NCBI RefSeq assembly: GCF_019857205.1
Contig: NZ_JAHWXO010000002.1
Span: 186,001-250,000, forward strand
DNA length: 64,000 nt
DNA from: Qipengyuania pacifica
Lineage (GTDB): Bacteria; Pseudomonadota; Alphaproteobacteria; Sphingomonadales; Sphingomonadaceae
Reading direction: 5' to 3'
Part shown: piece after piece, positions 40,600 to 42,121 of the stretch
How the letters are laid out: the number at the start of each line of letters is the position of its first letter
Numbering within the stretch: the stretch's first letter is position 1
Translations under genes and position numbers: made by a program
Notes under the pieces: model-generated
Database searches by the model: none
The model's input: the letters and a program-made list of their open reading frames with translations, nothing else
Told to the model about the DNA's origin: nothing

Positions 40600-41682
40600 T
40601 CAATCGAGCTTGTGCGTCCAGCCGTACGTGTCCGGCACGGTCCCTTTCTGAATACCGACTAGTTTTTCACGGATCTTGTGGGTCATCTGACCCGTACCGC
40701 CGCTACCTATCGTGAATTCGCCATCCGGACTCAGAACAGTGCCGACCGGGGTTACGACTGCGGCAGTACCGCAGGCCATGGTTTCCAGTAGGCGCCCCTC
40801 AGTGGCATCTGCGCGCCATTGGTCGATGCTGTATGGTTCTTCGCGAACCTGAAGCCCCTCATCGCGCAGGAGCTGTATCAGGCTGTCGCGCGTGATGCCG
40901 GGCAGAATGGTGCCAGTTAGCGGCGGCGTAATGACACTTCCGTCGTTGAAGACGAAGAACAGGTTCATGCCACCCAGTTCCTCGATCCATTTCTTCTCGA
41001 CGGCGTCGAGGAACACCACCTGATCGCAGCCATTTTCGATACCTTCGGCTTGCGGGACCAAGGACGCGGCATAGTTTCCGCCGGTCTTCGCAGCGCCCGT
41101 GCCGCCCGGCGCCGCACGGCTGTAATTGCGGCTGACCCAGATTTTGACCGGCTTGGCGCCGCCTTTGAAGTAGGGTCCGACCGGTGAGGCGATGAGGACA
41201 TATTTATACTGTCGCGCCGGTCGCACGCCGAGAAATGCCTCGGATGCGAACATGAACGGACGAAGGTAAAGCGAACCATCGGGATCACCGGGCACCCAGT
41301 CACGATCTTTGGCGACAAGCTGGCTGATCGATTCGAGAAACAGTTCTTCCGGCAATTCCGGCATCGCCATCCGCCGGGCACTTTCATTGAACCGGCGCGC
41401 ATTTTGCTCCGGTCGGAAAAGGGCGAGCGAGCCATCCTCTCGCTTGTAAGCCTTCATTCCTTCGAAGATCTCCTGCGCATAATGCAGGACCGCCGCTGCA
41501 GGATCGAGGCTGATCGGTTCGCGCGGGCCGAGCGTCGCCGTGTGCCATCCACCTTTGTCAGCATCGAAATCAATCACGACCATATGATCAGTGAACAGTT
41601 TACCGAAGCCGGGATCCTGCAATGCCTGCTGACGTGTTTCGCCGGGCACTGGGGCGGAGTGGGGAAGATGCTTGAAATCCAT
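40600..41682 (-). CDS. ilvE: Branched-chain amino acid aminotransferase
   Basis: A 360-residue fold-type IV PLP enzyme that carries out the last step of leucine, isoleucine and valine synthesis and the first of their breakdown. Visible are HYAQEIFEGMKAYKREDGS, FRPEQNARRFNESARRM, YLRPFMFASEAFLGVRPA, the PLP-lysine segment AAKTGGNYAASLVPQAE, and TIGSGGTGQMTHKIREKL at the end. The length is that of the longer BCAT type. ATG 41682 is used. A terminator-like hairpin and a tiny ORF lie just upstream on the same strand, an arrangement that looks like attenuation. Confidence 0.95.
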   Translation of the reverse strand: MDFKHLPHSAPVPGETRQQALQDPGFGKLFTDHMVVIDFDADKGGWHTATLGPREPISLDPAAAVLHYAQEIFEGMKAYKREDGSLALFRPEQNARRFNESARRMAMPELPEELFLESISQLVAKDRDWVPGDPDGSLYLRPFMFASEAFLGVRPARQYKYVLIASPVGPYFKGGAKPVKIWVSRNYSRAAPGGTGAAKTGGNYAASLVPQAEGIENGCDQVVFLDAVEKKWIEELGGMNLFFVFNDGSVITPPLTGTILPGITRDSLIQLLRDEGLQVREEPYSIDQWRADATEGRLLETMACGTAAVVTPVGTVLSPDGEFTIGSGGTGQMTHKIREKLVGIQKGTVPDTYGWTHKLD

Positions 41683-41746
41683 GGCCCGCGGGTAATGTGC
41701 GCTGCGAAATTTCGCAAGCGATCGGGTTGCGAGATCAAAATGAGAA

Positions 41747-41778
41747 GGGCAGCTCCACGCCCGTAGGTGGAACTGCCC
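41747..41778 (-). terminator. Terminator-like hairpin between tiny ORF and ilvE
   Basis: On the minus strand GGGCAGTTCCAC pairs with GTGGAGCTGCCC (one mismatch) around an eight-base loop, then TTCTCATTTT follows. It lies after the 18-codon ORF and 65 bases before the ilvE start, so it would end the short transcript or attenuate ilvE. Confidence 0.75.
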
Positions 41779-41789
41779 TTCGCATGGTC

Positions 41790-41808
41790 AGCGGCGGGAA
41801 GTGCCGCT
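41790..41808 (-). other. Small hairpin between tiny ORF and terminator
   Basis: AGCGGC pairs with GCCGCT around a seven-base loop (minus strand), 24 bases beyond the tiny ORF's stop. It could compete with, or stack beside, the terminator hairpin. Confidence 0.45.
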
Positions 41809-41832
41809 CACGTAGCCTCTAAAGGTATCTGC

Positions 41833-41889
41833 TTACCGATAGTGCTCCGTGCGGAAACTTGCCGACCTCTCTGCTGAACCATGAGACAT
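41833..41889 (-). CDS. Eighteen-codon ORF with an extreme Shine-Dalgarno
   Basis: The ORF encodes MSHGSAERSASFRTEHYR and ends in TAA. The start is set by GAAAGGAGGTGATCC directly upstream, with seven bases between the GGAGG core and ATG. The peptide has no Leu, Ile or Val, so it is not a classical branched-chain attenuator leader, though it precedes ilvE. It holds four Ser in four different codons (TCT, TCA, TCG, AGT) and three Arg (AGG, CGC, CGG). I do not recognise a family. The frame stays open upstream to an ATG at 42057, but the ribosome site argues for this start. It may be a small protein, a leader peptide or the coding part of a dual-function RNA. Confidence 0.65.
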   Translation of the reverse strand: MSHGSAERSASFRTEHYR

Positions 41890-42121
41890 CGGATCACCTC
41901 CTTTCGCGCTGTTTAGAGCCAAAGTACCCCGTTTCCGGGGAACAAGACCGCGTTTCGCCGCTGATCTTGAGGACATATTTGAGTCTTTCGCGGGCCTAAA
42001 ACAACCCTTGAAAAAAAGTTTTCCCACGTCAGAATTGTCGTTTCTGGCTCCGAACATTCATCGAGCCGTCCTTCAGTTCCTCTTCTGGTTCACTGACGTC
42101 GGCGATCGCGAAGCGAATCCC
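41890..42121 (-). other. Leader region between lipoprotein gene and tiny ORF
   Basis: Besides the Shine-Dalgarno, this stretch holds CCCCG-GAAA-CGGGG (41927-41940), which on the minus strand is a five-pair stem with a GNRA-type tetraloop, and a run of seven T on the minus strand near 42010-42017. AT-rich DNA around 41980-42030 is a plausible place for a promoter, but I cannot name a clear -35/-10 pair. I see no other gene in it. Confidence 0.45.
41891..41905 (-). promoter_or_regulatory. Fifteen-base Shine-Dalgarno of the tiny ORF
   Basis: GAAAGGAGGTGATCC is complementary to fifteen consecutive bases of the usual bacterial 16S rRNA 3' tail (GGATCACCTCCTTTC). Normal genes in this window show four to six bases. 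Spacing from GGAGG to ATG 41889 is ideal at seven. Confidence 0.85.

Follow-up and report, generated by a model that had tools for sequence, protein, structure and literature searches.

The closest described relative of the element reported here is the CC2171 small RNA (Rfam RF01867). According to the available part of the Rfam 15 paper, this family gained one covarying pair, and the accessible portion of a Mesorhizobium table lists a family member. A description of function was not found in the full-text literature on CC2171 or RF01867, and neither an open reading frame (ORF) nor a 16S complement was described for the family in the literature found; in both cases most subscription journals lie outside the coverage. 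Other systems invite comparison, as far as the accessible portions of the papers extend. The attenuator leader peptide peTrpL of Sinorhizobium belongs, like our element, to a short translated alphaproteobacterial RNA, but unlike leaders of that type the element is not bound to one operon and its peptide is not conserved (PMC7298713). Extended Shine-Dalgarno starts in Staphylococcus aureus likewise involve small ORFs and an mRNA that pairs with the 16S tail over an extended length. They represent a general rule of initiation (PMC13009471), whereas here a single RNA, conserved across a whole class, is complementary to the 15-base tail. CcnA of Caulobacter (CCNA_R0094) is an alphaproteobacterial small RNA with a proposed link to the cell cycle, but it is proposed to act on the ctrA and gcrA mRNAs; the accessible text mentions no connection between CcnA and CC2171, and CcnA was set aside as the identity of the element because of its location at the replication origin (PMC8959179). 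SEP1 of Sinorhizobium (23 amino acids) was set aside because of its pI of 4.18 (PMC10117765, accessible part). Within the portions available, CC2171 was not matched to any CCNA_R number in PMC5988900, nothing on the family was found among the Hfq-bound RNAs of PMC11005374, and a literature search with GGAGGUGAUCC and sRNA gave a match on YbeY only.

The element was found in a stretch of 64,000 nucleotides from Qipengyuania pacifica, referred to here as the window. A preliminary description of this DNA, made from the sequence alone, had noted a short ORF, an anti-16S stretch and hairpins, and all of them lie on the minus strand where it had placed them (Table 1). The stem of the terminator-like hairpin has 15 pairs, nine of which are G-C, and is followed by TCATTTT. 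The next ORF begins at 41682 and matches Pfam Aminotran_4; the name ilvE for it comes from the preliminary description. Judging from the putative promoter, transcription would start at about 41969 and give an RNA of about 230 nt in the window. The leader around the GNRA hairpin is much shorter or missing in several sphingomonads.

Table 1. Features of the element in the window
Feature	Position	Strand	Basis
Putative -35 TTGTTT, within the conserved CAAGNNTTG motif at 42010-42002	42004-41999	-	Motif in 71/77 sphingomonad-type copies
GACTC, a GANTC (CcrM-type) site 16 nt past TTG	41985-41981	-	Same place in 49/71 copies
Putative -10 CAAATA, 17-nt spacing	41981-41976	-	Inferred, read from sequence
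Hairpin with GNRA loop, CCCCG-GAAA-CGGGG, in the 5' leader	41940-41927	-	Read from sequence; within predicted fold
Region homologous to Rfam RF01867 (CC2171 sRNA), model positions 1-159	41913-41746	-	43.5 bits, E 7.2e-8
Super Shine-Dalgarno GAAAGGAGGTGATCC, complement of the 15-base 16S 3' tail	41905-41891	-	Sequence; nearly invariant in 65 aligned copies
18-codon ORF and stop, MSHGSAERSASFRTEHYR	41889-41833	-	Sequence; frame and stop position kept, peptide not
ORF start ATG	41889-41887	-	
ORF stop TAA	41835-41833	-	
Helix P1, 5' strand, codons 3-6	41883-41873	-	Covariation at the columns of codons 3-5
Helix P1, 3' strand, immediately 5' of the terminator	41792-41783	-	Covariation and strand-pairing test
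Predicted intrinsic terminator: stem 41781-41744 and T-rich tail	41781-41737	-	Predicted; stem covaries in 65 copies

By its sequence, the short ORF region before ilvE is a divergent copy or relative of CC2171, a Caulobacter small RNA that is widespread in the Alphaproteobacteria. When 551 bases were searched against Rfam with permissive settings, RF01867 was matched over all 159 model positions. This full-length match of sequence and structure is significant, but its score of 43.5 bits falls short of the gathering score of 75 bits, and a default Rfam search of the whole window therefore has no such entry; the mean accuracy of the alignment is 0.66, and it is poor in the middle. Besides the full-length alignment, the window copy shares with CC2171 a common core, GAAAGGAGGUGAUCC-N-RUGUCUCAU, the position of a helix that we call P1, and the terminator. 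In contrast to CC2171, the window copy starts with ATG instead of GTG and differs in codons 4-5 and in the middle, and sphingomonad copies have a different promoter-proximal leader.

Matches to RF01867 at an E value of 0.001 or better were obtained in 85 of 385 genomes of the class, and 13 of the 385 passed the cut-off, so the family extends well past the curated Rfam threshold. Fourteen control genomes were searched with the same model, and only Caulobacter vibrioides gave a match. A DNA similarity search detected the element in 172 of 199 genomes of the family, many of them matching in the core only. With up to two mismatches, the core was present in 51/385 class genomes, while the reversed control pattern gave zero in every row listed; among 299 genomes of the phylum it was present in 35 of the 86 from the class and in none of the 213 from outside it. 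Named records with the exact core, among the matches listed (at least 120 stretches), included Sphingomonas, Novosphingobium, Brevundimonas, Bosea, Methylobacterium, Microvirga, Azospirillum and Roseomonas. Copies for further analysis were gathered by the core pattern, RF01867 and DNA similarity. A regular-expression filter, which demanded the core and, after the start codon, A or T then C, kept 208 of the 210 loci, so that part of the conservation seen in the core and at codon 2 is built in. Reduction by identity around the start left 185 copies, 78 sphingomonad-type and 107 others.

The preliminary description was right that GAAAGGAGGTGATCC complements the 16S tail exactly over 15 bases, which was verified in a genome of the same genus (G198) that carries GGATCACCTCCTTTC at the 3' end of a full-length small-subunit rRNA match. 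No 16S tail was found in another genome (G158) or in the organism's own draft genome (3.5 Mb, 54 contigs). The anti-16S 15-mer occurs once exactly in this draft and once more with one mismatch. Within the window, the only exact match to the 10-base core AGGAGGTGAT is the site itself, and four others have one mismatch. The anti-16S stretch is nearly invariant across 65 aligned copies, and the start that follows it is conserved too. A chance Shine-Dalgarno match was ruled out by the recurrence of the element in relatives and by the class-wide core; the element is more than chance because a DNA match (E value of 0.001 or better) exists in the 172 family genomes mentioned above.

The ORF behind this site is short throughout. 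It has 14-36 codons in 203 of the 208 copies and 56-59 codons in four (the Azospirillum type), and the remaining one has six codons and is ended by the edge of the available sequence. With counting begun at codon 8, frame 0 meets its first stop at 7-19 codons in 77/77 sphingomonad-type copies and in 93% of the 107 others. For the remaining two frames the figures are 33% and 47%, and 19% and 18%. The position of the stop is kept despite the use of all three stop codons (TAA 44, TGA 28 and TAG 5 in sphingomonad-type copies; TGA 71, TAA 23 and TAG 13 in the others). Behind a ribosome-binding site that complements all 15 bases of the 16S tail, the CC2171 family carries a mini-ORF that is constrained and looks translated.

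The second conserved property is long-range folding. In helix P1, codons 3-5 pair with a strand past the stop codon, directly 5' of the terminator. P1 had already been noticed by eye, both when RF01867 was aligned and among copies that were read. The alignment used to assess it took 65 of 99 candidates, copies without a called terminator, over the length limit or too similar having already been dropped. Standard pairs filled 92.9% of the P1 cells, and 29 cells were double-changed against 7.5 in shuffles, with the caveat that related sequences are not independent. None of 500 shuffles reached the observed number of paired cells, double-changed cells, pair types or the covariation score, but 58 of 500 reached the observed number of pairs with a double change. 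When the partner strand was slid by 1-3 columns, pairing was 7-56%. A single P1 pair shows all four Watson-Crick types, the 65 copies having UA 41, GC 14, CG 4, AU 1, UG 1 and other combinations in 4. The terminator stem covaries in these copies as well. Strand pairing was also calculated independently from the 180 of 185 copies in which a terminator was called, with 110 distinct 5' segments. Start segments paired with the segment next to the terminator of their own copy at a mean of -17.5 kcal/mol compared to -12.6 (sd 0.31) for permuted partners, but no more than 8 of the 110 had their own partner as the best one.

Judging from ribosome footprints, the first codons lie beneath a bound 30S initiation complex, which would exclude P1. 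In 178/180 copies, 12 nt or more separate the end of the stop codon from the terminator arm. We therefore tentatively favor a reading in which the element is an independent short translated RNA, a divergent relative of CC2171 from its own transcription unit, on whose start region the 30S subunit and P1 compete. A 30S subunit on the super Shine-Dalgarno would cover the 5' strand of P1 and make ribosome loading and P1 mutually exclusive, and the stop codon would free ribosomes short of the 3' strand. Such an RNA would act as a ribosome-loading switch, either ribosome-held and open or closed by P1, and its state would determine how stable the RNA is or how accessible it is to a partner. The peptide would be a by-product of translation. 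The anatomy of anti-16S stretch, short ORF, P1 and terminator is well supported at the level of sequence, while the switch and its signal, output and target are what we infer. If the switch is confirmed, the element would be a candidate direct sensor of 30S availability for alphaproteobacteria, and some annotated small RNAs would be mini-mRNAs in which translation, rather than the peptide, is selected.

Some of the predictions count against a switch. In single-sequence folding the median probability of P1 was 0.90 in 96 other copies but 0.03 in 56 sphingomonad copies, and the RNAalifold consensus lacked P1. The minimum-energy fold of the window element (z -5.5 against shuffles) is predicted to pair the Shine-Dalgarno GGAGGUG with CACUUCC and the leader with the 3' strand of P1. 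The Azospirillum-type copies, with what looks like a real ORF of 56-59 residues, would also be hard to fit to a switch. Sphingomonad copies may have two alternative states. The leader strand AUCAGCGGC (41969-41943) could pair with the P1 3' strand, in what would be a possible alternative state with the Shine-Dalgarno closed. An internal anti-Shine-Dalgarno, YAYTTCC, lies between ORF and terminator in 39 of 75 sphingomonad-type copies, and none was seen by eye among the other copies listed.

A base-pairing small RNA that regulates mRNAs in trans, with the ORF and Shine-Dalgarno minor or present for stability only, would suit an independent unit with its own terminator and agrees with Rfam, which types the CC2171 family as sRNA. 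We consider it unlikely: the best-conserved stretch is the one that pairs with 16S, the stop in frame 0 is under constraint, and the P1 strands covary with each other instead of being fixed as a seed would be. The maximal complementarity and the short ORF of constrained length could also be read as a 30S decoy, in which the 15-bp duplex titrates small subunits and the ORF merely recycles them. That is quite improbable since it demands an RNA abundance close to that of ribosomes and leaves the covariation of P1 unexplained.

The next alternative is a small protein gene whose product is the peptide. The preliminary description had proposed asking whether ORF, ribosome site and terminator recur together in relatives, and whether the peptide or only the RNA is conserved. 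The three are kept together as a unit; frame, length and RNA folding are conserved, but the peptide is not. Among 57 distinct sphingomonad ORFs, codons 6-18 were about as variable at codon positions 1 and 2 as at position 3. The same held for the Trp-containing stretch in the other group (61 distinct ORFs), with mean entropies of 1.49, 1.53 and 1.33 at positions 1, 2 and 3. Neither group thus showed the codon-phase pattern that purifying selection would leave on a peptide, and a conserved peptide was rejected for both. Since ORF length and RNA folding are conserved and the peptide is not, the sequences suggest that ribosome binding matters rather than the peptide. The small protein reading can point to an ORF that is always short and closed by a stop, and to an in-frame Trp codon within codons 10-19 of 63/107 non-sphingomonad copies (TGG occurred in the other frames in 25 and 9). 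It is further helped by the ORF of the Azospirillum type (L102, L131, L144, L183 and L186), which begins at the same Shine-Dalgarno and start, runs to 56-59 residues and has a signal-peptide-like N-terminus. We nevertheless regard it as a poor candidate, given the missing codon-phase signature and a codon 4 that switches amino acid while P1 persists (Cys 40, Gly 13, Arg 5, Glu 3, Tyr 2, Ser 1 and His 1 in 65 aligned rows). The Trp stretch often reads T-W-I-x-A-S, yet it is without a codon-phase signature. No Pfam match was obtained for L102 and L186, the two Azospirillum-type ORFs scanned. A pattern of peptide constraint was seen for some pairs of this type only: L102 and L183 differ at 7, 1 and 11 sites in codon positions 1, 2 and 3, while L183 and L186 differ at 11, 6 and 8, which is no codon-phase pattern, and an indel puts the pairs that involve L131 out of register.

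The preliminary description correctly counted four Ser in four codons (TCT, TCA, TCG and AGT) and noted that the peptide lacks Leu, Ile and Val. The sensing of particular Ser or Arg tRNAs that it derived from the codons is unsupported, as only codon 9, always TCG, is fixed among the otherwise widely varying codons 6-18 of sphingomonads, and the peptides of other alphaproteobacteria are quite different. It had also read the order of features as transcription attenuation before ilvE, which is not borne out because the neighbors are lineage-specific, the element is inverted in one locus and it has its own terminator. Among the 185 non-redundant copies, an ilvE relative was nearby in 39/78 sphingomonad-type copies and 0/107 others; these neighbor tests were limited to the sequence around each locus, often about 1.5 kb per side, and 94 of the 107 others had at least 1000 bases after the start. 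The largest cluster of neighboring ORFs covered no more than 9/107 non-sphingomonad copies, and in sphingomonads the upstream gene was the steadier neighbor (71/78). In locus L008, the element and its promoter-like motif lie on the strand opposite both flanking genes and are hence inverted with respect to ilvE. Both features expected of a biosynthetic attenuator were missing, as the leader ORF lacks regulatory Leu, Ile or Val codons and the position before a regulated gene is not conserved. A transcription attenuator or leader peptide of ilvE is therefore highly improbable, even with a terminator tail that ends 54 bases before the same-strand aminotransferase ORF in the window and an ilvE relative at 39 of the 69 sphingomonad loci that extend 1000 bases or more past the start, and an antiterminator was not seen in the predicted fold of the window element.

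The sphingomonad-type copies have a common upstream region. The CAAGNNTTG motif was present in 71/77 of them, and GANTC lay exactly 16 nt past the -35-like TTG in 49 of the 71 copies with the -35 motif; 27 of the 77 lacked either GANTC at this place or the motif. From -100 to -60, GANTC had a density of 1.83 per 100 bases, compared to 0.21-0.30 beyond -150 upstream, and 57 sites were counted in this stretch versus 13, 4 and 27 for the control palindromes CANTG, GTNAC and AGNCT. Among the other copies, 33/107 had GANTC at -60 to -20. At the conserved motif, a generic promoter scan gave no call. GcrA acts at promoters with GANTC sites, and it is encoded in the organism's own genome. GAnTC is the site of CcrM (PMC5988900, accessible part). 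Transcription of the sphingomonad copies may be tied to the cell cycle through GANTC, but we treat the connection of the promoter to GANTC and CcrM as a lead and not as a result. A wider and rather doubtful proposal is that CC2171-type RNAs are riboregulators throughout the class, with 30S loading as their conserved function. In these, a maximal anti-16S site with a mini-ORF constrained in length and free in sequence would be set against P1, and 30S loading versus the covarying helix would report the capacity for translation initiation, perhaps once in each cell cycle by way of a methylation-dependent promoter.

The exact core was also present in two viral contigs (L211 and L212). One genome of the same family (G091, L050) carries two copies, at C1:2922045 and C1:805112; one is of the sphingomonad type and one is far nearer to the RF01867 consensus, with a score of 68.9 bits.
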